DNA of 32,485 bases from Bacillota bacterium (lineage in GTDB: Bacteria; Acidobacteriota; Terriglobia; Acidiferrales; UBA7541), in assembly GCA_023511565.1 (NCBI GenBank), contig JAIMBE010000012.1, positions 1 to 32,485 on the forward strand. Direction: 5' to 3'. Of the stretch, positions 6,534-17,313 are shown piece after piece. A program made the translations under genes and the position numbers. Every line of letters starts with the position of its first letter. Within the stretch, counting starts at the first letter, position 1. The notes beneath the pieces were generated by a model that saw only the letters and a program-made list of their open reading frames with translations, ran no database searches and had not been told where the DNA came from.

Positions 6534-9326
6534 ATGGCTCGGGACTTTCCTAAAACGTACGAACCACAACCGATCGAGCAGCGCTGGTCGGGCTACTGGT
6601 ACACCGAGCAACTGTTTCGCGTGGACCCGAAGGCCCCTGGGCCGGTGTTCAGCATCGTCATCCCGCCGCCCAACGTGACCGGATCGATTCACATCGGCCA
6701 CATGCTTGAGCACACGCAGATCGATACCCTGGTCCGCTGGCGCCGGATGCAGGGCTATAACACGCTCTGGCTGCCCGGCACGGACCACGCCGGCATCGCA
6801 ACCCAAGTGGTGGTCGAGCGGCGCCTGGCTGCCGAAGGACTCCAGCGCCAACAGCTCGGCCGAGAAGCGTTCGAACGGCGCGTCTGGGAATGGAAGGCGG
6901 AAAGCGGCAACACCATCAAGAAGCAGATGATCCGCCTGGGTGATTCCTGCGATTGGTCGCGCGAGCGGTTCACGCTGGAGCCGGCGCTGTACCGTGCAGT
7001 CCTGGAAGCCTTTTTGCGTCTCTACCACGAAGGGCTGATCTACCGCGGTCGCTACATGGTGAACTGGTGTCCGCGTTGCCAAACCGCGTTGAGCGACCTG
7101 GAAGTCAGCCACCAGGAACGCGCCGGCAAGCTCTGGTACCTCCGCTATCCCGTGCTCGGCTCCGGTGAACACATCACAGTGGCCACCACGAGGCCGGAAA
7201 CGATGCTCGGAGATACCGCCGTGGCCGTCCATCCGGACGACGAACGCTACCGTCACCTGATCGGCCGTCGCGTACTCTTGCCCCTGATGGAGCGCGAAAT
7301 TCCCATCCTGGCCGACCCCACTGTGGACCGCGAATTCGGCACCGGCGCCGTGAAGGTGACGCCCGCACACGACCCGAACGACTTCGCGCTCGGCCAACGC
7401 CACCACCTGCCGGAGGTGGAGGTGATCACCGAAGACGGCCATATGAGCGAGGCCGCCGGCCGTTTCGCTGGTCTGGATCGTTTCGCGGCCCGTGAACGCA
7501 TTGTCGCCGAGCTGCGGGAACTGGGGCTGCTGGAACGCATCGCCGACTACACGCACGCCGTCGGCCTTTGCGATCGCTGCAAAACGGTCGTTGAACCGCG
7601 GCTCTCGCTCCAATGGTTCTGCCGGATGAAACCGCTGGCCGAGCCAGCCATTCAGGTCGTCCGCGAAGGATTGATTCCGATCGTTCCCGAGAACTGGAAA
7701 GCCGTCTATCTGGACTGGATGGAGCGCATCCACGACTGGTGCATTTCGCGCCAGCTCTGGTGGGGGCACCGCATCCCGGTCTGGCACTGCGCCGATTGCG
7801 CGGCGATGACGCCAGCGCGCAGCTCGGCCGTCGCAGTCACCGCGGGCTGTGCCGCGGCCGCCGATCCGCCCGAACGCTGCGCCCGTTGCGGCAGCCGCCG
7901 GATCGAACAGGATCCCGATGTGCTCGACACCTGGTTCAGCTCGGCCCTGTGGCCGCTCTCCACGCTCGGCTGGCCCGACGAGACCGAAGACCTGCGCACC
8001 TTCTATCCCACTTCGCTGCTGATCAGCGGCTACGACATCCTGTTTTTCTGGGATGCGCGCATGATCATGTTCGGACTGAAATTCGCTCCCGGCCGCACCC
8101 TGGCCGAACGCATCCCGTTCCGGCAACTCTACCTGCACCAACTGGTGCGCGATCCGGAAGGCGTGAAGATGTCGAAGACGCGCGGCAACGTGATTGATCC
8201 GCTCGAAGTCATCGAACGCCACGGCACCGATGCGCTGCGCTTCACCCTGGTGGCCATGGCGGCGCCGGGCACCGATATCGCCCTGAGCGAAGAGCGCATC
8301 CTCGGCTACCGCGCTTTCGCCAACAAGATCTGGAACGCGGCCCGGTTTCTCTTCTTCAATCTCGAGAAGATCGAAGCGCTCGGCGTGCGGCTCGAAGAGC
8401 TGGCGTCGCCCGCCGTGCGTGCCGCCGCGCCCTACCGCACCGGTCACCAGCTCCCGCTGGCGGACCGCTGGATTTTCTCGCGCCTGGGCACGACCGTTGC
8501 GGAGGTCAACGCCGCACTGGAGGAATTCCGCTTCCACGAAGCCGCGCACGCCATCTACCACTTCTTCTGGGGCGACTTTTGCGACTGGTATGTCGAGTGG
8601 GTCAAGCCGGCGCTGATTCCTGCAGCCGACACACCGGCGGCCCGCGAAGCCGCGGTGGCCCAGTGGCGGAACCTGTTTGCCGTGTTTGACTGCGCGCTGC
8701 GCCTGCTCCATCCGGTGATGCCGTTCATCACCGAAGAGCTCTGGCACCGGCTGCCGCAACGGCAGAACGCCCGCTCGATTGCTCTGGAGCGCTTCCCCAC
8801 CCCGCCGAACTCCTGGCGCGACGCCGCGGCCGAAGTCGACTTCACGCTGCTGCAGGAGATCATTGCAGCGGCCCGCAACCTCCGCGCCGAACTCAAGCTG
8901 GAGCCAAAGCGGAAAGTCGCGGCAGAATTCTCACCGGCCACACCGGACGTGCAGGAACTGGTCGCCGCGAATCTGGAGCCGGTGCTGCGGCTGGCCGGGC
9001 TCGCTTCGCTGCAGGTGGTGACGGGACCGCTGGCCACCACGCCGGGTGTGGTGCGCTCGACCGCCCAGTTTGACCTGCGCATCGCGTACTCGGAAGCGGT
9101 GGACCTGGCTGCTGAACGCCACCGACTGGACAAGGAGCTGGAACGGCTCCGCCGCGACATCGCAGCCAAGCGACAGCGCCTGGCCGATGCCACGTTCCGC
9201 GCCCGTGCGCCTGAACGCGTCGTGCGCGACCTGGAAACCGCGCTCCGCGAGCGAGAAGTCGAATACCGCAAGCTCGCCGACCGGCTGGCCCAGCTCGGCG
9301 GTGCCGAAGCCCCCGCGACCAAATAG
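6534..9326 (+). CDS. valS: Valyl-tRNA synthetase
   Basis: 930 residues, within the usual 880-960. This class I synthetase charges tRNA-Val and edits mischarged Thr. Visible signatures: the PPPNVTGSIHIGHM segment with HIGH at residues 53-56, the TTRPETMLGDTAVAV entry to the CP1 editing domain near 220, the VKMSKTRGNVIDP loop with KMSKT at 545-549, and a C-terminal coiled-coil tRNA-binding arm (about 855-925, rich in E/R/L). Two CxxC pairs (C419/C422 and C449/C452) in the connective region look like a structural zinc site, as in many bacterial ValRS. The start ATG is preceded by G-rich GGGGATGGGG. A stop-free antisense frame over most of the gene is a GC-bias shadow. nadC follows after about 60 nt, probably in the same transcript. 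Confidence 0.97.
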   Translation: MARDFPKTYEPQPIEQRWSGYWYTEQLFRVDPKAPGPVFSIVIPPPNVTGSIHIGHMLEHTQIDTLVRWRRMQGYNTLWLPGTDHAGIATQVVVERRLAAEGLQRQQLGREAFERRVWEWKAESGNTIKKQMIRLGDSCDWSRERFTLEPALYRAVLEAFLRLYHEGLIYRGRYMVNWCPRCQTALSDLEVSHQERAGKLWYLRYPVLGSGEHITVATTRPETMLGDTAVAVHPDDERYRHLIGRRVLLPLMEREIPILADPTVDREFGTGAVKVTPAHDPNDFALGQRHHLPEVEVITEDGHMSEAAGRFAGLDRFAARERIVAELRELGLLERIADYTHAVGLCDRCKTVVEPRLSLQWFCRMKPLAEPAIQVVREGLIPIVPENWKAVYLDWMERIHDWCISRQLWWGHRIPVWHCADCAAMTPARSSAVAVTAGCAAAADPPERCARCGSRRIEQDPDVLDTWFSSALWPLSTLGWPDETEDLRTFYPTSLLISGYDILFFWDARMIMFGLKFAPGRTLAERIPFRQLYLHQLVRDPEGVKMSKTRGNVIDPLEVIERHGTDALRFTLVAMAAPGTDIALSEERILGYRAFANKIWNAARFLFFNLEKIEALGVRLEELASPAVRAAAPYRTGHQLPLADRWIFSRLGTTVAEVNAALEEFRFHEAAHAIYHFFWGDFCDWYVEWVKPALIPAADTPAAREAAVAQWRNLFAVFDCALRLLHPVMPFITEELWHRLPQRQNARSIALERFPTPPNSWRDAAAEVDFTLLQEIIAAARNLRAELKLEPKRKVAAEFSPATPDVQELVAANLEPVLRLAGLASLQVVTGPLATTPGVVRSTAQFDLRIAYSEAVDLAAERHRLDKELERLRRDIAAKRQRLADATFRARAPERVVRDLETALREREVEYRKLADRLAQLGGAEAPATK

Positions 9327-9389
9327 CGGGCCGTGGGCGACGACGCGGCCCGGGCCTCGCTTTCTCTCTTTTTCCTCCGGGGGCAGGCT

Positions 9390-10346
9390 ATGGTAGTGTT
9401 TCCCAGCAACACCATGAGCACAGCCCCCTTCCCCGAACCTCTCGACTGGGACGCGCCGATTCTGGTCACGATGGTCCGCGCTGCGCTCGAAGAAGACCTC
9501 GGCACGGCCGGCGACATCACCACGAACAGCATCGTGCCCCCCGACGCCACGGCCTGTGCACACCTGCTGGCCCGGCAACCGGTCGTGCTGGCCGGTTTGC
9601 CACTGGCCGAACGTGCCTTCCGCGCGCTGGATGGCCGCGTGCTGTTCCATTCTCGCTACGCGGATGGCCAGACTGCGGCCGCCGGCGAGGTCTTTGCTGA
9701 GCTTGCGGGCCCCGCGCGCGCCATTCTGAGCGCCGAGCGCACCGCCTTGAATTTCCTGGCGCATCTGTCGGGCATTGCTTCGCTCACGCGCCGCTTTGTC
9801 GAGGCCCTCACCGGCACCCGAGCCCGTATTCGCGATACGCGGAAAACGACCCCACTGCTGCGGCAGCTCGAAAAGTACGCGGTGCGCGTCGGTGGCGGCA
9901 GCAATCACCGCTTCGGGCTGTACGACGCCGTATTGATCAAAGAAAACCACATTGCGCTGGCCGGGAGCTTGACCACCGCCCTGCACCGCGCCCGTGAACG
10001 CGCCCCGGCCCTGGCTCGGCCCATCCCGGCGCGACCGGCCACCGCGCCGCCCGCCGTGTCCACCGCCAACCTTGTGATTCAGGTCGAGGTGCGTACCGAA
10101 GCCGAACTGCGGGAAGCCCTGGCGGCCGGCGCCGATGCCGTGCTGCTCGATAACGTCACACCGGAAGAGGCCCGCCACCTGGTGGCGCTGGTGCGGGCTG
10201 AACGTCCCCAGTGCATCGTCGAGGTCTCTGGCGGCATCACCCTGGCGAATGTACGCGCCTATGCGGAAGCCGGCGTGGATTTCATCGCCGCGGGCGCGCT
10301 CACCCATTCGGCGCCCGCCGCCGATTTGAGTCTCCTGGTCGAATGA
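9390..10346 (+). CDS. nadC: Nicotinate-nucleotide pyrophosphorylase (quinolinate phosphoribosyltransferase)
   Basis: 318 residues from ATG 9390. Alternatives are GTG 9333 and ATG 9414; 9390 has the G-rich CCGGGGGCAGG just upstream. The enzyme converts quinolinate and PRPP to nicotinate mononucleotide in de novo NAD synthesis. Sequence hallmarks: EEDLGTAGDITT near the N-terminus, the ERTALNFLAHLSGIA helix, the DTRKTTPLLR and GGGSNHRFGLYD substrate-binding segments, LIKENHI, the QVEV strand, LLDNVTPEEAR, and EVSGGI near the C-terminus. A 20-residue Pro/Ala-rich insert (about residues 210-230, nt 10015-10070) separates the LIKENH helix from QVEVRTEAE. It is not part of the catalytic barrel. The gene sits downstream of valS and upstream of birA and coaX, a vitamin/cofactor cluster. 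Confidence 0.95.
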   Translation: MVVFPSNTMSTAPFPEPLDWDAPILVTMVRAALEEDLGTAGDITTNSIVPPDATACAHLLARQPVVLAGLPLAERAFRALDGRVLFHSRYADGQTAAAGEVFAELAGPARAILSAERTALNFLAHLSGIASLTRRFVEALTGTRARIRDTRKTTPLLRQLEKYAVRVGGGSNHRFGLYDAVLIKENHIALAGSLTTALHRARERAPALARPIPARPATAPPAVSTANLVIQVEVRTEAELREALAAGADAVLLDNVTPEEARHLVALVRAERPQCIVEVSGGITLANVRAYAEAGVDFIAAGALTHSAPAADLSLLVE

Positions 10347-10524
10347 CGTTGCCAGTGCGAAGCGCACGCGCGGTGACCGGGGCAGTGCAGCCAACGACTG
10401 CCCGCACGGCCGGTTTGTTGGTAGAGTCATGAGTGTTCGGGCGGGCGGCTCGTGCCCGAGCGGGCCGCAATCGGCCACGTTCCGACCGCACGGGTGGGGC
10501 CGAAAACGTCGCGGCGGGCCGCCC

Positions 10525-10531
10525 AAAGGAG
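10525..10531 (+). promoter_or_regulatory. Shine-Dalgarno sequence that sets a TTG start for birA
   Basis: AAAGGAG lies 7 nt before the in-frame TTG at 10539. An ATG at 10534 sits between them but is in another frame and hits a stop after 13 codons, so it cannot be the birA start. The TTG is the only start codon in the birA frame at proper distance from this ribosome binding site. Confidence 0.7.
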
Positions 10532-10538
10532 TCATGGC

Positions 10539-11549
10539 TTGCCACGAAGCACACCGCCACTGCTGCCGGGTCTGACCGACCGGCGCATCGATGCGCTGCT
10601 GGCGCTGCTGGCGGAAAATCCGATGCTCGTGCTCAGCGGCGCACGGATCGCGCGCGAGATTGGCGTGTCCCGTTCGACTGTCTGGCGCTGGGTCGAGAAG
10701 CTGCGCGCTCTCGGCGTGCGCGTCCGGGGCCATACCGGCAGCGGCTACCGAATCGAACAGGTGCCCGATGTGCTCGTGCCCCGACTGCTGCGTCCGCTGC
10801 TGCGCGGCACCTCATTTGAAAAGCGCATCTACCATTTCTTCAAAGTCGGCTCGACCAACGACGTCGCTCTCACGCTCGGCCAGGCCGGCGAGCCGCATGG
10901 GGCACTGATCATCGCCGAGGAACAGACGGCCGGCCGCGGCCGTGCCGGCCGGAGATGGGTCTCCGAAAAGTCGCTCGGGATTCACGCGACCGTGCTGCTC
11001 CGACCGCCGATCCCGCCTGCACAGGCGCCGCTGATCACGCTGCTGGCCGGACTGGCTGTGCGCGAGGCCATCGCTGAGCAGACGGGTCTGGCCGCCGACC
11101 TCCGCTGGCCGAACGATGTGCTGATCGGTGGCCGGAAGCTCTGCGGCATCCTGACCGAAATGCACGCCGAACCGGATCGCATCCATTTCGTTGCCGTGGG
11201 CATTGGCATCAACGTCAATCAGACGGCGATGCCGGACGAGCTCGGCGCGCAGGCCACCTCGCTGCGCATGGCCAGCGGCCGGTGGACGTCGCGGCTGGAG
11301 CTGCTGGCAAAGTTGCTGGTCTGGCTCGAGCGCTACTACAATCGTTTCCTGGCCGAAGGCCCGCGGCCGATTCTGGAACGCTTCGCTGCTGTGTCCAGCT
11401 ACGCCGAGGGCAAGCGCGTGCGGATTGTCACGGCCAGCGAATCGTTCACGGGCATCACCGCCGGGCTGGAGCCCAACGGTGTGCTGCGCGTGCAGCGCGA
11501 AGACGGCCACATCGAAACGGTGCTCGCCGGCGATGTCACGGAGGCCTGA
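10539..11549 (+). CDS. birA: Bifunctional biotin-[acetyl-CoA carboxylase] ligase / biotin operon repressor
   Basis: 336 residues from TTG 10539. An upstream GTG at 10452 would add a low-complexity Arg-rich leader with no ribosome binding site. The N-terminal ~65 residues form a winged helix ([21 protein letters not shown] followed by a GHTGSGYRI wing), so this is a group II BirA that can bind DNA. The ligase domain shows the biotinyl-AMP loop GRGRAGRRW at 132-140, RWPND at 189-193 and the catalytic-lysine segment [10 protein letters not shown]. The C-terminal small SH3-like domain is present. BirA attaches biotin to the carboxyl carrier protein and may repress biotin genes, but no bio genes lie in this window. 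Its stop codon overlaps the coaX ATG by one base, so the two are translationally coupled. Confidence 0.95.
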
Positions 11550-12370
11550 TGCTGCTGGCTATCGACGTGGGCAACACCAATACGGTGCTCGGCGTCTTTC
11601 GCAGTGCGAAACTCATCGCCCACTGGCGGCTGACCACCGCCCGGGATCAGACGGTGGATGAATACGGCCTGCTGATCCGCAACCTGTTCACCCTGGAAGG
11701 GCTGAACGTTCGCAACATCGCAGGCGTCATCATCAGTTCGGTCGTGCCTCCCCTGAACGGGACGTTGGCGCAGATGGCCGAGCGCTACCTGGGCGCGCGT
11801 CCGTTGTTCGTCGAACCCGGCATCAAAACCGGCATGCCGGTGCTCTACGACAATCCCCAGGAAGTCGGCGCCGACCGCATCGCCAACGCCGTGGCCGCCT
11901 ACGCCAAGTATGGCGGCCCCTGCATCGTCGTGGATTTCGGCACCGCCATCACCTTCGACGCAATCACGGCTCGCGGCGAATACGCAGGCGGAGTCATCGC
12001 CCCCGGCATCGGCACTGCTGCCGACTCCCTGTTCGCCCGCGCCGCCCGCCTGTGGCGCGTCGAAGTGAAAGACCCGGGCCAGATCATCGGCACCAACACG
12101 GTCGCATCCATCCAAGCCGGCCTCTATTACGGCTGGGTGGACCTGGTGGACGGCATCCTGACCCGCATGAAAAAAGTGCTGGGAGAAAATGCGCGCGTCG
12201 TAGCGACCGGCGGCCAGGCTCCACTGATCAGCCGCGGCTCCCGCCACATCGAACAGATCGACGATTTCCTCACACTCGAGGGCTTGCGCATTATCTGGGA
12301 GCGCAATGCTGCGGCAGGCGCCTCCAAATCCCGCATCTTGAATCCCGCGCGGAAACTTTCTCCGAAGTAA
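11549..12370 (+). CDS. coaX: Type III pantothenate kinase
   Basis: 273 residues, close to the family norm. It phosphorylates pantothenate in the first step of CoA synthesis. Start ATG 11549 overlaps the birA TGA by one base, with GGAGG at 11540-11544 as the ribosome binding site; a longer upstream extension in this frame is excluded by the birA gene. The ASKHA-fold motifs are all visible: phosphate-1 DVGNTN at residues 6-11, GADRIAN at 107-113, DFGTAITFD at 129-137, and GGVIAPG soon after. The type III enzyme is typical where type I CoaA is absent, and the birA-coaX pair is widespread. No clear terminator follows. The 188 bp to the next gene carries a promoter near its end. Confidence 0.96.
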
Positions 12371-12519
12371 CCGCAGCTCGGCCGGGCCCAGCCTCCCCGC
12401 TACCGCAGGCTGACGGCACCGGCCAACCCTAGGGCTGTGTTCCCACCCGGGACGCACTTGGAGTCCAGCCTGGCAGATTGGTGGCGCTGCTCGCGGTGCC
12501 CCGGAGCGTTGGCCGGTGA

Positions 12520-12528
12520 TGGTACAAT
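12520..12528 (+). promoter_or_regulatory. Extended -10 promoter upstream of the 244-aa gene
   Basis: TGG followed by TACAAT (12523-12528) matches an extended -10 (TGnTAnAAT-like). No convincing -35 is seen. Predicted start near 12535 leaves about 24 nt before ATG 12559, with no Shine-Dalgarno in that stretch. Confidence 0.45.
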
Positions 12529-12558
12529 GGCAGCGCGCGTGCCGGTGCACAACCTGCG

Positions 12559-13293
12559 ATGGAACGGTTGAACTACTTCAACTACTTTACCGAAATCGAA
12601 GAACACTTCTGGCGCAAGCGTGGTGCACACATTCTGGTTTCTCCGCTCGACTGGGCCATCGTGGAGACCTGGCAGAAGGCCGGCATCCCGCTCGAAGCCG
12701 TGCTGCGCGGCATCGACCGCGCCTTTGAAAGCTACCAGCGCTCGCGCCGTGGTCTGGGCGGACGCCCGCTGAAAAGCCTGGCCTACTGCGTGGACGCCGT
12801 GCTCGAGGCTGCCGTGGAACTTCAGCAAGCGACTGCAGGGGCTGGCCCGGAACCCTCCCGCCGGAAACCGTCTCCAGAACCGTTTTCGCGCGCCGAGCTG
12901 TGCGGCTACCTGCAGCGCAACGCCGAGCGGCTTCGTGCCGCGGCCGAGAAATTCCGCAGTACAGAAAATGGCGCGGGGCTGGCCGCGCAGCTCGAGCAGA
13001 CTGCGGCACGCTTGGCTGAACTCGAACTAGGGCTCTCGGCCTCCGGTCCCCTGGATTTGCAGGAGCTAGAACGACGATTGACCGTGCTCGAAGAAAAGCT
13101 GGCCGCCGCGCTGACCGCCAGTGCCGACGAAACGCTTCTGCTCAGCTTGCGCCGTGAACTCGACCGCGCCCTAACGCCGTACCGTCAGCGAATGACCGCC
13201 GAACAATTGGCGCAACTCGAGCGTCAGTACCTGCAGAAGCGACTGTTTGAAGAGCACGGTGTGCCTCGCCTGAGCCTGTTCTACCTGAGCTAA
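12559..13293 (+). CDS. Uncharacterised 244-aa protein, compact N-terminal domain plus coiled coil
   Basis: I do not recognise a named family. The codon pattern and position between two well-defined genes support a real gene, and a promoter-like TACAAT lies 30 nt upstream. The N-terminal ~95 residues look like a folded helical domain: an aromatic-rich start (RLNYFNYFTEIEEHFWRKRG), then SPLDWAIVETWQKAGIPLE, VLRGIDRAF and a SLAYCVDAVLEA ending. A Pro/Ser-rich linker at about 95-115 follows, then two helical, heptad-like stretches (about 120-165 and 175-225) rich in Leu, Glu, Arg and Ala that predict a coiled coil, and the C-terminal segment PRLSLFYLS. There is no signal peptide or membrane helix, so it is likely cytoplasmic. 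The layout of a W-x-x-x-G-I-P-helix followed by a short C-terminal helix loosely recalls DnaD-like replication domains. That is a guess only. Confidence 0.75.
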   Translation: MERLNYFNYFTEIEEHFWRKRGAHILVSPLDWAIVETWQKAGIPLEAVLRGIDRAFESYQRSRRGLGGRPLKSLAYCVDAVLEAAVELQQATAGAGPEPSRRKPSPEPFSRAELCGYLQRNAERLRAAAEKFRSTENGAGLAAQLEQTAARLAELELGLSASGPLDLQELERRLTVLEEKLAAALTASADETLLLSLRRELDRALTPYRQRMTAEQLAQLERQYLQKRLFEEHGVPRLSLFYLS

Positions 13294-13309
13294 AACTTCC
13301 GCGGAGGGG

Positions 13310-13315
13310 TACAAT
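13310..13315 (+). promoter_or_regulatory. Possible -10 element before the RNA methyltransferase gene
   Basis: TACAAT at 13310-13315, 17 nt after the stop of the preceding gene, in the same GGTACAAT context as the element at 12521-12528. No good -35 is present. It would give a leader of about 90 nt before ATG 13412, which itself has no clear ribosome binding site. Confidence 0.3.
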
Positions 13316-13411
13316 CGCCGGGGCACCGACCGGCTCCACCGAGCGGCGGGGGCCGGTAGCGTCACCGGGACGTGGCGCATCCGGACGCCGGTTCCCGGCA
13401 CGAACCCAGTC

Positions 13412-14704
13412 ATGGAAACGATTGAAGTTCGGATCGAAAAGCTCATCTACGGCGGCGAAGGGCTGGCGCATCACGATTCCCACACGGTCTTTGTGCCGTT
13501 TGTGCTCCCCGAAGAGGTCGTTGCTGTCCAACCGGTCGTGCGGCGCCGGAAATTCGTTCGTGGGCGGCTGGAACGTGTCGTCACGCCCTCACCGCAGCGT
13601 GCTGAGGCCGCTTGCCGACACTTCACGAGCTGTGGTGGCTGCGATTACCAGCATATTCCCTACCCCGCGCAGCTCGACTTCAAGGTGCAAATCCTCCGCG
13701 AAACACTCGGCCGAATTGGCGGCCTCCAGTACCTGGGCGAAATCGAAACCCACCCTTCTGCACCGTACGGGTATCGCAACCGGGCGCAGTGGAAAATTCG
13801 ATCGGCGAGCGACCCGGGCGACGTCGCTGCGATTGGCTATGAACGCGCCTCTTCGCACGCATTCTGCGCAGTCGAGCAGTGCCCGATCCTAGCACCGCGA
13901 CTCGAGCAGACGCTGAAGTCGCTGCGCGACCGGCTCGCGCTGGGTGCGCTGCCCGCCGGGATTATGGAACTGGAAGCCTTCGCTGATCCCGCCCATGACC
14001 CGCTGTTGCTGACCGTTTCCTTCTCACGCTTTCCAACCGGACCGCGGCGCATCGCAGCCATGTTCCGCGACGCGCTGCCCGGGCTGGAATCGCTGCTGCT
14101 TTACGACGCATCCCGAGACCGCTTTGAGCTCGACGGGCCGGGGTACATCTTCTATACCGTCGGCGAGATTCGCTATCGTGTCGGTCATCTGTCGTTTTTT
14201 CAGGTGAACCACACGCTGCTGGAACGGCTCCGCCAAGCCGTGACGCGCGACGCCGTCGGTAGGCTGGCACTGGAACTGTATGCTGGCGTCGGATTTTTCA
14301 CCGTACCCCTCAGCACCCGCTTCGAACGCGCGATCGCAGTGGAATCCAATCCGGCGGCGGTGCGCGACCTGAAGGAGAACCTCCGTGCTGCTTCCGCCGA
14401 CCGCGTACAGGTCGTCGAAGGCAGCGTGGAAAAATACCTGGCCGGGCTTACGGTCACGCCGGATCTGATCGTGCTTGACCCGCCGCGCGGCGGCGTGGTC
14501 GCGGGCGCGCTGGCACAAATTGCCCGGCTCGCGCCGGCACGAATCCGCTATCTCTCTTGCGATCCGGCGACGTTGGCGCGCGATCTGGCGGCACTGGGTC
14601 GCCACGCGGCCGGCGCCTACGAGATTGTCCGGATTGAGCTGTTCGATCTGTTCCCGCAGACCTATCACATCGAAACGCTGGTCGAACTGGTGAGGCGCGT
14701 GTGA
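13412..14704 (+). CDS. rlmD: 23S rRNA (uracil-5-)-methyltransferase, RlmD/TrmA family
   Basis: 430 residues. This SAM-dependent enzyme forms 5-methyluridine in RNA. An N-terminal TRAM RNA-binding domain spans about 1-60. A 4Fe-4S-type cluster is suggested by C68, C74 and C77 (CRHFTSCGGC) plus a downstream Cys (C152 or C157). This makes an RlmC/RlmD-like rather than a cluster-less TrmA enzyme. The Rossmann domain shows ELYAGVGFFTVPL as the SAM loop, VLDPPRGG, and the catalytic cysteine C383 in LSCDPATLARDL. The exact uridine target cannot be told from sequence, so the symbol is tentative. The stop codon overlaps the comEC GTG start by 4 nt, which suggests coupled translation. Confidence 0.9.
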   Translation: METIEVRIEKLIYGGEGLAHHDSHTVFVPFVLPEEVVAVQPVVRRRKFVRGRLERVVTPSPQRAEAACRHFTSCGGCDYQHIPYPAQLDFKVQILRETLGRIGGLQYLGEIETHPSAPYGYRNRAQWKIRSASDPGDVAAIGYERASSHAFCAVEQCPILAPRLEQTLKSLRDRLALGALPAGIMELEAFADPAHDPLLLTVSFSRFPTGPRRIAAMFRDALPGLESLLLYDASRDRFELDGPGYIFYTVGEIRYRVGHLSFFQVNHTLLERLRQAVTRDAVGRLALELYAGVGFFTVPLSTRFERAIAVESNPAAVRDLKENLRAASADRVQVVEGSVEKYLAGLTVTPDLIVLDPPRGGVVAGALAQIARLAPARIRYLSCDPATLARDLAALGRHAAGAYEIVRIELFDLFPQTYHIETLVELVRRV

Positions 14705-17313
14705 AGTTGCCTGCCCTGTGGCTCGCGTGTGCGCTGGCATCCGGAGTGGCGCTGGCCCGCCTGGGGGCGCCGGCACCCGGTCCCCTGCTGGTGGCAGCGG
14801 CCGTATCGTTCCTGCTGGGTCTGGTGCTGCTGACGCGAGACCTTCGGCTGCCGGCTTGGATTGTGGCCCTGCTCGCCTGGGGATTACTCGGTGTCGCCGC
14901 CGCGCAGCTCGAGCCGCTCGCCCGTCCCCCGCAGCACGTCCTGCACCAGCTGCATTCCCCGGACAGCGTCCTCGCCGCGGCGCTCGATGAACCGCTGCGC
15001 TGGCAGGGCACGCTGCGCAGTGATCCGGTGCGGCTGCCCTGGGGCGTGCGCTACGAAGTCGAGCTGGCCTCCGTCGAGCTGAAGGGCCGCCGCGAGCCGG
15101 TCGCCGGTGGACTCCGCATTCACTACTACCTGGAGCCGGAGACCGAGCAGCCCATCGCGCTGCCGGATGTGCGGGCTGGCGACCGCATCGAAGCCCTCGT
15201 GCGCGCCCGACCGATTCGCAATTTTGGCAATCCAGGCGCCTTCGACGCCCGCACGTATTTCGACCGCATCGGCATCCACCTGAACGCCACCTTGCGCAGC
15301 CCGGAACTGCTGCAGCGCTTGGAGTCCCCTTCACCTTCGATCGCCCACCGGTTCGCTCGTCTGCGTGGTGCGCTGCTCGAGCGCGTCGAGATGATCTTTC
15401 CCGACCAGCCCCACCAGGCCGCGGCGGCGCGTGCGATCCTGTTTGGGGATCGCAGCTTCGTGGATCACGAGCTGGCCGAGGCCTTCCAGCGCACCTCCAC
15501 CTACCACGTGCTGGTGCTGAGCGGGCTGCACGTCGCGGCACTGGCCCTGCTGGTCTGGTGGGTGGGACGCAAGCTGCGTCTGGGGTTGCCGGCGATCACA
15601 TGGTTGACCCTGGCCGCACTCGGATTTTTCGTGGCTCTGGTGGAAGACCGCCCGCCGATCGAACGCGCGGCCCTGATGGCTGCGCTGGTGGTGCTGGCGC
15701 GGCTGCTGTTCCGCCAGATCGAACTGCTGAACACGATCGGCGTTGCTGCTTTGCTGCTTTTGCTAGCACAGCCGTCTTCGCTGGCGGACTCGAGTTTTCA
15801 GCTCTCGTTCCTGGCCACGGGCATGATCGGCGCGCTCGGGCGGCCCTGGATCGAGCAAACCAGCGCACCGTACCGCCGCGCCCTGCGCGAGCTGAGCGAT
15901 GTGACCCGGGATCACGTGCATCCGCCGCGCGCAGCGCAGTTCCGGCTCGACCTCCGCGCCCTGGCCGCCTGGCTTGCGCCGCGGCTGCCGCGTCGACTGG
16001 GTTCGCGGACCGATCGTCTGCTCGCACTGCCCTGCCACTTTGCCTTCTGGCTCTGGGAACTGCTGCTCATCAGCACTGCCATCCAGGCGGGCATGCTCGG
16101 TCTGATGGCCGAATACTTCCATCGCATCTCGCTCACCGGGCCATTGGTCAACGTACCGGCCTCGCTGCTGGCCGGTCTGGCACTTCCGGTTGGCTACCTG
16201 GCGCTGGCACTCGGAGCCCTGTGGGGCGGTCTGGGCGCGATCGTGTATCCCGCTTGTCGCTGGGTGCTGAGTGCGCTGGTCAGTCTGGTGGAATGGTGTG
16301 CGCGCTGGCCGGGAGCCAGCTACCGGATCCCGAATCCGCCCGACTGGGTGCTGCTGGGATTTTTCGCTGCGCTGGTGTTGGTGGCCGTGGCTGCCCGGGT
16401 GCGTTCGCGGGCATGGCAATGGGCCGCCGCCGTGCCCCTGGTTGTGTTGGCCGTGCTGCTGCTCACGCACCCGTTTCCGCCGCAGCTCACTGCCGGCGCA
16501 CTCGAAGCCACCGTGCTCGACGTTGGCCAGGGCGACGCCATCTTCGTGGCCACACCCGAGGGCCGCACCCTGCTGGTGGACGCGGGGGGCGCGTTCGCCC
16601 CACGACGCGGTGGCTACCGCACAGCTCCGGACACCGGTGAGCAGATCGTTTCGCCCTATCTATGGTCGCGGGGGCTGAAGCGGCTGGACGCGGTCGCGCT
16701 GACCCACGCGCATCAGGACCACATGGATGGGCTCTACGCCATCCTCGACAACTTCGCCGTGGGCGAGCTGTGGATCGGACGCGCAGTCGAACAGCCCGCC
16801 TTCGGCGCGCTGCTGGCCCATGCGGCTGCGCGTCGAGTACCCGTGGTGGTGCGCCGTCGCGGGGAAATTTTCACCTGGGGTGGCGCCACTGTGTTTGTGC
16901 TCTGGCCAGAGTCGGTGGATCCGGCACCCACCGCTAGCAACAACGATTCGCTGGTCCTGCGGCTGGAACATGGTCGCCACGCCTTCCTGCTCTGTGGCGA
17001 TATCGAGCGTAACGTCGAGCAGGAACTAGTGCAGCGCGGTGACCCGCTCGCAGCCGATCTGCTCAAAGTGCCGCACCACGGGAGCCGGACGTCGGCGAAC
17101 CGCGAGTTTGTCGCTGCGGTTCGCCCGCAGGTGGCCGTGCTTTCCCTGGGCGCCAACAACCCCTTCGGCCACCCCCACACCGAAGTGCTGCACACGTTGT
17201 CGACACCCACGCTGCAGCTGTTCCGCACCGACCGCCACGGTGCCGTTTCCGTCTTCAGTGATGGGGTCACGCTGCACACCCATTCGTTCTGGCCCGCACC
17301 AGCGGTCCGCTGA
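14701..17313 (+). CDS. comEC: ComEC/Rec2-family DNA uptake channel
   Basis: 870 residues starting at GTG 14701, which overlaps the previous stop (GTGA). Three parts are visible. The first is an N-terminal DUF4131-type region with membrane helices and an OB-like soluble part (about 1-230). The second is the polytopic competence domain (about 230-590), starting with HQAAAARAILFGDRS and TYHVLVLSGLHVAALALL. The third is a C-terminal metallo-beta-lactamase domain (about 595-860), with VLDVGQGDAIFV, the THAHQDHMDG metal motif at 668-677 (His669, His671, Asp673, His674), LLCGDIE and the KVPHHGSRTS motif. Full-length ComEC transports single-stranded DNA across the inner membrane during transformation, and the C-terminal domain is thought to degrade the other strand. 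All metal ligands appear intact, so the gene looks functional. No other competence genes lie in the window. Confidence 0.95.
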   Translation: MKLPALWLACALASGVALARLGAPAPGPLLVAAAVSFLLGLVLLTRDLRLPAWIVALLAWGLLGVAAAQLEPLARPPQHVLHQLHSPDSVLAAALDEPLRWQGTLRSDPVRLPWGVRYEVELASVELKGRREPVAGGLRIHYYLEPETEQPIALPDVRAGDRIEALVRARPIRNFGNPGAFDARTYFDRIGIHLNATLRSPELLQRLESPSPSIAHRFARLRGALLERVEMIFPDQPHQAAAARAILFGDRSFVDHELAEAFQRTSTYHVLVLSGLHVAALALLVWWVGRKLRLGLPAITWLTLAALGFFVALVEDRPPIERAALMAALVVLARLLFRQIELLNTIGVAALLLLLAQPSSLADSSFQLSFLATGMIGALGRPWIEQTSAPYRRALRELSDVTRDHVHPPRAAQFRLDLRALAAWLAPRLPRRLGSRTDRLLALPCHFAFWLWELLLISTAIQAGMLGLMAEYFHRISLTGPLVNVPASLLAGLALPVGYLALALGALWGGLGAIVYPACRWVLSALVSLVEWCARWPGASYRIPNPPDWVLLGFFAALVLVAVAARVRSRAWQWAAAVPLVVLAVLLLTHPFPPQLTAGALEATVLDVGQGDAIFVATPEGRTLLVDAGGAFAPRRGGYRTAPDTGEQIVSPYLWSRGLKRLDAVALTHAHQDHMDGLYAILDNFAVGELWIGRAVEQPAFGALLAHAAARRVPVVVRRRGEIFTWGGATVFVLWPESVDPAPTASNNDSLVLRLEHGRHAFLLCGDIERNVEQELVQRGDPLAADLLKVPHHGSRTSANREFVAAVRPQVAVLSLGANNPFGHPHTEVLHTLSTPTLQLFRTDRHGAVSVFSDGVTLHTHSFWPAPAVR

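Follow-up and report, generated by a model that had tools for sequence, protein, structure and literature searches.

Helicase loading in Bacillus subtilis follows the order DnaA, DnaD, DnaB and then DnaI:helicase, and DnaD, whose C-terminal tail binds single-stranded DNA, itself binds both DnaA and DnaB, according to PMC10201434. DnaD-like domains have also been described in another setting: in PMC2736966, cyanobacterial Ftn6 is presented as a cell-division factor with an N-terminal DnaD-like domain and is reported from cyanobacteria only. PMC5109545 divides bacteria into users of DciA and users of phage-derived DnaC/DnaI, reports that the two are mutually exclusive, and does not have Acidobacteria in its list of phyla with a resident dna[CI].

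Among the titles and abstract openings listed in our literature search, with most subscription journals outside its scope, none dealt with a loader of the DnaD-like or DnaC-like kind from Acidobacteria. DciA has reportedly been surveyed across phyla in a 2022 study. We analysed a stretch of 32,485 nucleotides from an Acidobacteriota genome (contig JAIMBE010000012.1), here called the window. One of its genes (12559..13293, + strand; 244 aa plus stop), delimited from its ORF, the family alignment and relatives, encodes a protein with a DnaD-like domain. We think it reasonably probable that this protein is a chromosomal DnaD-like helicase co-loader that acts in replication initiation and/or restart and has been inherited vertically through most sampled Acidobacteriota.

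A conserved acidobacterial gene and its protein

The 244-aa ORF singled out in an earlier note on this DNA is present as described and is conserved in relatives. We searched two genome sets, one of 61 relatives (G000 to G060) and one of 119 genomes sampled across the phylum, the window's own genome being in both. With the window protein as query, matches were found in 56 of the 61 relatives and in 97 of the 119 phylum genomes (own genome counted). Hence the ORF is not a chance one, and a spurious ORF was ruled out by this conservation; the absence of any homologue, which the earlier note had set beforehand as grounds against its reading, is not what the search of the relatives returned. A relative from the same genus is 89% identical across the full length of the protein, and the annotated start codon is consistent with the conserved N terminus of the family in a 53-sequence alignment. 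The window protein belongs to no Pfam or NCBIfam family; DUF7610, at E = 1.3, is noise.

A profile of the same 53 family members (A1) finds the family in 104/119 phylum genomes at E ≤ 1e-3 and in 98/119 at 29 bits or more, the level that we counted as safe for the DnaD-like gene. The six matched genomes below 29 bits (G079, G085, G098, G111, G134 and G164) were scored negative. Five rows below 29 bits come from one clade, f33; these cover profile positions 18-171 or less, lie in open frames of 321 to 599 aa, and look like coil matching. There is usually one copy per genome in the phylum set. Separate second matches occur in G066 (contig C16), G124 (C44), G147 (C10) and G175 (C47) and may be paralogues; the remaining second rows of the A1 search are split or coil matches. 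Invariant in the 53-sequence alignment are Y9, E14, R21, D31, W32, P44, C77, L174 and L240.

The gene sits in a conserved neighbourhood with the order valS-nadC-birA-coaX-X-rlmD/comEC, where X is the DnaD-like gene. We scored 60 loci from members of the class and the phylum, 59 of them with the gene by tblastn; the neighbour counts are lower bounds because many loci end at the edge of a contig or of the fetched stretch. Upstream and on the same strand lie an ORF that we take, from its sequence, to be valS (6534..9326, +; 31/60 loci), nadC for quinolinate phosphoribosyltransferase (9333..10346, +; 18/60), birA with an HTH plus a biotin protein ligase (10452..11549, +; 38/60) and coaX for type III pantothenate kinase (11546..12370, +; 42/60). 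Downstream are an rlmD-like RNA m5U methyltransferase gene with TRAM plus tRNA_U5-meth_tr (13412..14704, +; same strand in 25/60) and comEC (14701..17313, +; same strand in 26/60), with comEC in two more loci and the methyltransferase in one more on the opposite strand. Apart from valS these assignments come from Pfam; the names rlmD, valS, birA, coaX and comEC are presumptive. The earlier note had thus located the gene correctly, after coaX and ahead of the methyltransferase gene and comEC, while the promoter of its own that it assigned to the gene found no support: a scan that covered one promoter type, sigma-70-like sites, gave none in 12350-13450, and another kind of promoter may be present.

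We read the conserved synteny as one orthologue inherited vertically, not as a mobile gene. In IMG/VR, 134 stretches matched a conserved peptide, and none encoded a relative. On both grounds we dropped the idea that the gene is of mobile-element or phage origin in this genome. A contig search with the peptide NY[FY]NYFTE gave at least 597 stretches and at least 580 relatives, and the best 80 were kept. Among the matches listed, the closest record with a name comes from Terriglobia (Acidobacteriota), a contig whose copy of the protein is 89% identical. Also among them is a record titled Betaproteobacteria (L118) with a 58% identical copy of the gene; it is probably mislabelled.

AlphaFold2 run on A1 (mean pLDDT, 91.1; pTM, 0.70) predicts four helices (residues 6-21, 29-40, 45-62 and 74-93) within the N-terminal DnaD-like domain (residues 6-93; 12574..12837, +). 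Modelled alone with A2, a broader alignment of the N-domain, this domain scored a pLDDT of 86.5 and a pTM of 0.79. It is followed by a variable linker of low conservation, non-helical and with lower pLDDT in the model (residues 94-110; 12838..12888, +). The C-terminal part of the full model has helices at 111-133, 139-159, 167-188, 191-211 and 214-232, and together with the family alignment this defines a five-helix bundle (residues 111-232; 12889..13254, +), after which comes an ordered tail, PRLSLFYLS, conserved in the alignment (residues 236-244; 13264..13290, +). The N-terminal pattern quoted in the earlier note was read correctly (S28-P-L-D-W32, W38, G42-I-P44-L45, V48-L-R-G-I52, F56 and S73-L74-A-Y-C77). 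For what it called a coiled coil, the AlphaFold2 model makes a helical bundle the better description.

The sliding clamp is bound through the motif QL[S/D]LF. The tail segment PRLSLFYL resembles it, yet R replaces Q in most bearers: xLSLF lies inside the last 16 residues of 39/53 A1 members, preceded by R in 36 of these 39 and by Q in only 1. Perhaps, then, the protein is a replication regulator or replisome accessory and not a loader, its RLSLF tail binding the clamp and its DnaD-like domain binding DnaA or DNA? The retention of xLSLF speaks for this. Against it stand the replaced Q, the many deeper-branching proteins (among 40 listed) that replace or lose the motif, and the high pLDDT of the tail region, which in the model is more like a packed segment. 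We consider a clamp-binding accessory improbable and continue with the co-loader reading.

Phage, plasmid and bacterial relatives of the N-terminal domain

Residues 10-111 of the window protein match positions 180-272 of phrog_7498, labelled 'DnaD-like helicase loader' (E = 1.9e-12); the DnaD-like part of that profile is at about positions 175-275 of 296. The match recurs in 53/53 A1 members, at best with 7.5e-16. Five very divergent or candidate members were scanned apart, and one of these matched at E ≤ 0.1. Against 50,697 phage records, tblastn with the window protein gave seven matches. Four of them are entries for Brevibacillus phages Jimmer1/2 (E = 3e-6, 35% identity over 82 aa), the Jimmer1 match being gp77, and the remaining three have E values of 0.3 to 4. 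With the Jimmer1 domain as query, E for those three falls to 8e-5 or below, and Caldibacillus phage CBP1 appears at 6e-6. Among 72,556 plasmid records there were five matches: Aneurinibacillus (7e-8), Bacillus altitudinis (0.01), Staphylospora (0.3) and two at E ≥ 5 that involve the C-terminal part only and were not fetched.

We compared profiles with hhalign. A2 aligned with eight domains from phages, plasmids and a viral contig at 99.6% (score, 124) and with 12 DnaD C-terminal domains at 72% (score, 30.0), the latter set comprising B. subtilis DnaD, 2zc2 and ten phage copies retrieved with the B. subtilis protein. As controls for A2 we took windows from alignments of neighbour genes and from the C-terminal bundle of the protein itself, each in both directions, and skipped windows with fewer than five usable sequences; the 104 comparisons had a mean score of 10.1 (s.d., 2.4; maximum, 19.4), with reversed profiles at about 11. 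Against the same DnaD domains, full-length A1 reached 22% (score, 26.9), the eight phage-type domains alone 44% (26.1) and the pooled set in global mode 13% (21.0); these three scores top the control maximum, but the controls were for A2 only. Since the phage-domain scores are strong and the DnaD scores weak or dependent on the setting, these sequence comparisons point to a solid homology of the N-domain to the phage DnaD-like domain and to a probable but remote homology to DnaD proper.

The faint DnaD likeness suspected in the earlier note is accordingly a true homology, by phrog_7498, tblastn and hhalign, to the phage DnaD-like domain. PF07261 is missing among the Pfam families listed for the window protein and family members (25 of 40 listed), and there is no winged helix N-terminal to the DnaD-like domain, the protein opening with that domain at about residue 6 and being helical in the rest. 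We conclude that the window protein, having no N-terminal winged helix, is not DnaD itself. Nor is the case, which the earlier note thought would be notable outside Firmicutes, the first to be reported there: PMC2736966 had already described the DnaD-like domain of cyanobacterial Ftn6.

Sequence searches of the PDB yielded candidates that we did not accept as relatives: five chains for the window protein (E ≥ 0.54), apolipoproteins and other coiled-coil chains for profile A1, aligned along the C-terminal bundle (best, 7e-5), and two chains for the N-domain profile (best, 0.087). With the full model, helical bundles fill the Foldseek/VIA list. In the Foldseek/VIA PDB fold search with the N-domain model, no DnaD chain appeared; the best match was a proteasomal AAA+ ATPase (Z, 7.0), a likeness that we put down to a common arrangement of helices. 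Another fold match, to phage lambda P (9oa1; Z, 5.7; rmsd, 5.8), was left unused. A BFVD fold search with the N-domain had 'Replication initiation and membrane attachment', 'DnaD-like replication protein' and HTH phage proteins in its top rows, with nothing at E ≤ 0.001 (best E, 0.25).

For genomic context we took eight loci: three phages and three plasmids found with the window protein, phage CBP1 and viral contig L216. Some had entered through weak matches of the window protein (phi OH2, 0.3; PK5.2, 4; Staphylospora, 0.3; B. altitudinis, 0.01), and phi OH2 and PK5.2 were then linked by the Jimmer1 domain at 2e-5 and 8e-5, respectively. Duplicate phage deposits and L215 (a Jimmer phage again) were left out. 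In all eight loci the domain is the C-terminal part of a longer protein. In seven of the eight it follows another domain by Pfam: Phage_rep_O in two, Phage_rep_org_N in one and an HTH around or below the cut-off in four. The L219 protein has PF07261 alone, at 0.0012, below its cut-off. The next gene, in 7/8 loci, encodes a DnaC/DnaI-like loader (five), a DnaB-like helicase (one) or a G39P-like loader/inhibitor followed by dnaB (one); Caldibacillus phage CBP1 has no loader or helicase gene downstream within the stretch read.

The replisome organisers of the phrog_7498/Jimmer1 gp77 type thus carry a homologous domain of about 80 to 100 residues, with the SP.D, GI and S..YC positions in common with the Acidobacteriota protein. 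In the latter, however, the domain is N-terminal and precedes a helical bundle, and the gene lies in a housekeeping cluster. What it shares with the C-terminal domain of B. subtilis DnaD (8ojj, 2zc2; PF07261-type) is the pattern (L/V)SP....W and a profile similarity that is remote and spans helices 1-3; besides lacking the winged helix, the Acidobacteriota protein differs from DnaD in its longer helix 1 and following loop.

Ftn6 suggests another use for such a domain. As described in PMC2736966, it resembles the Acidobacteriota protein in being a chromosomal protein outside Firmicutes whose DnaD-like domain is N-terminal, and the family might likewise act as a cell-division or segregation factor, as proposed for Ftn6, with the bundle binding division proteins. 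The FND consensus given there, W-X3-A-X2-E-X4-G-R-Y-X3-S-X4-L-X2-W, differs from our family consensus when the two are compared by eye as strings only. The nearest relatives that we found are phage and plasmid replisome organisers, mostly beside helicase loaders, and the neighbour genes scanned include no division genes; both argue against a division role, to which we give little credence.

A further alternative is a DNA-metabolism protein outside initiation (repair, recombination or nucleoid), in which the DnaD-like domain would be a DNA-binding module only. The housekeeping neighbours share no theme, as such a role would allow, and several DNA functions are reported for DnaD-like proteins in PMC2736966. 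The near relatives fetched outside the phylum, on the other hand, are marked as replication proteins by their labels, their fused domains (Phage_rep_O, Phage_rep_org_N, HTH) or their context, and a role outside initiation is in our view unlikely. A co-loader acting in initiation and/or restart remains our preferred reading.

A DnaC/DnaI-type gene and DciA in the same genomes

A search of the 61 relatives for DnaC/DnaI (PF01695) returned IS21 helpers, DnaA and one further class, which almost all of the genomes have in roughly one copy and whose members are 38-93% identical to the G001 copy. The family has an N-terminal motif, CxxCx(G/D)xG(W/L)...CxC, and an AAA+ core with Walker A G-x-x-G-[VA]-G-K-T-H plus Walker B. 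We built a profile of it (A5) that includes the window-genome copy (contig C134:605-1399; L261). In the PDB, A5 matched 3ecc (2e-44), 2qgz (3e-24), 6qel (2e-20) and 4m4w (2e-19); chains named DnaC (3ecc, 6qel), primosome component and DnaI ranked above IstB (6e-11 to 2e-10), while the 'helicase loader' 5he8, at 1e-11, was only level with IstB. The gene also matches phrog_50, 'DnaC-like helicase loader', at 2.7e-50, and three relatives of it from other genomes fell below the NCBIfam cut-offs. Judged by these profiles, the AAA+ core of the putative partner is closer to DnaC/DnaI than to IstB.

Compared with known DnaC/DnaI loaders, the acidobacterial gene adds the N-terminal cysteine motif and, in part of the phylum, is located behind hspR and in many cases dnaJ as well. 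Of 50 family loci, 22 have an hspR-like gene upstream and 19 a dnaJ-like gene; three of the loci were fetched twice, two of the genes do not belong to the core class, and the flanks often span only 1.5 kb. The window genome has a second, different DnaC-like AAA+ gene (L279:1664-2395, contig C167; 244 aa), 30% identical to the core G001 gene. The family is present in 106/119 phylum genomes at E ≤ 1e-15 and in 58/61 relatives, including 45/45 of good quality; G060 has only a fragment at a contig end.

The DnaC/DnaI-type gene is found in nearly the same genomes as the DnaD-like gene. Presence was scored at 29 bits or more for the DnaD-like gene, at E ≤ 1e-15 for the DnaC-like gene and, for DciA, by a PF05258 match with E ≤ 1e-3. 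Among the 119 phylum genomes, 58 have all three, 38 have the DnaD-like and DnaC-like genes without DciA, 1 has the DnaD-like gene with DciA and 1 the DnaD-like gene only. Genomes without the DnaD-like gene have the DnaC-like gene with DciA (5), the DnaC-like gene only (5), DciA only (9) or none (2). The DnaD-like and DnaC-like genes are thus together in 96/119 genomes (Fisher p, 2e-8, kinship ignored). In the ten genomes with the DnaC-like gene and no DnaD-like gene at 29 bits or more, completeness is below 90% for G093, G110 and G157, 90% for G097 and G128, and 93-98% for G063, G079, G126, G129 and G141.

All nine DciA-only genomes belong to clade f33, where 9/9 have DciA, no DnaC-like gene at E ≤ 1e-15 and no DnaD-like gene at 29 bits or more, which at first suggested a double loss. 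One of them, G173, encodes a 206-aa candidate of similar layout (L210:4987-5607) that matches the N-domain HMM at E = 5.7e-5 and the window-protein query at E = 5.5e-4, so the DnaD-like absence in f33 may be divergence. The L210 protein has no PHROG match, and the usual neighbours are absent from its locus.

Where both genes are present, they are on the same contig in 26/96 genomes and on different contigs in 70/96. They lie less than 50 kb apart in 19/96, from 11 families, against 2.7 expected at random (contig breaks and kinship ignored), so that placement is in part closer than random. The closest pair is 7.4 kb apart, no pair is adjacent, and 3/26 same-contig pairs are more than 1.2 Mb apart. 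We conclude that the two genes are neighbours in a region and do not form an operon.

In the window genome (90.8% complete), neither PF05258 (DUF721/DciA) nor A4, a profile of 26 acidobacterial DciA domains, gave a match. PF05258 finds DciA in 29/61 relatives and 73/119 phylum genomes, and A4 finds the same 29/61. Of the 32 relatives without a DciA match (loss or extreme divergence), 28 have the DnaD-like gene, and the other four are 59-79% complete. In the window's family, DciA is undetected (again loss or extreme divergence) throughout the sampled genera g1, g5, g6, g7, g8, g11, g12 and g13, present in all g3 and g4, and mixed in g2 and g9, whose negatives are 59% and 65% complete; the pattern mostly follows genus. 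On contig C96 of G053 (L269), about 2 kb separates DciA from the DnaC-like gene.

We dropped a simple replacement of DciA by the pair, as 58 genomes carry all three genes; in these 58 of the 96 genomes that have the pair, DciA is a further candidate loader. Might the DnaD-like protein instead assist DciA in loading and have no connection with the DnaC-like ATPase? DciA accompanies it in 59 of the 98 genomes with the DnaD-like gene at 29 bits or more, as this would predict. The 38 genomes that pair the DnaD-like and DnaC-like genes with no DciA by PF05258, and the 28/32 relatives that keep the DnaD-like gene where neither PF05258 nor the tailored profile finds DciA, are contrary to it, and we judge a DciA auxiliary very improbable.

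A putative helicase co-loader in Acidobacteriota

Because its domain is otherwise seen in replication starter proteins of phages and of the Bacillus type, the putative DnaD-like co-loader probably helps to bring the replicative helicase onto DNA when copying of the chromosome begins. The homology to the phage domain, the loader or helicase genes beside its phage and plasmid relatives, the conservation of the gene, and its co-occurrence and regional linkage with a DnaC/DnaI-type gene speak for this. Against it count the weak link to DnaD proper, with no PF07261 among the Pfam families listed and no DnaD among the PDB fold matches, the distance between the two genes, which are on different contigs in 70/96 genomes, the ten genomes with the DnaC-like gene but no DnaD-like gene at 29 bits or more, and the DciA of 58/96 genomes. 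In this scheme the DnaD-like domain at the N terminus would touch DNA, the initiator complex or both and would bring in the DnaC/DnaI-type AAA+ loader together with the DnaB helicase, which implies DNA binding and a physical contact with the loader. DnaB with the DnaC-like ATPase could then be handed to an open origin, giving the protein a role at oriC, or to a restart fork. Self-assembly or partner binding may fall to the C-terminal part, helical bundle and tail, in place of the winged-helix (oligomerising) half of DnaD.

The kind of domain is already known. New within the literature that we found are the domain order, the conservation across the phylum and the coexistence with a DnaC/DnaI-type gene and DciA. 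It is quite possible that Acidobacteriota use a chromosomal phage-type loading pair, consisting of a DnaD-like protein of new architecture and a DnaC/DnaI-type ATPase, beside DciA in many lineages and in its place in others.

Helicase loading outside E. coli and Bacillus is still an open question for many phyla. Here one uncharacterised protein is named as a likely replication factor, and its DciA-plus and DciA-minus relatives are a natural set for testing which loader works. If Acidobacteriota do use such a pair, it would contradict the reported mutual exclusion of DciA and a resident DnaC/DnaI, and outside Bacillota it would be a second DnaD/DnaI-like system, built separately.
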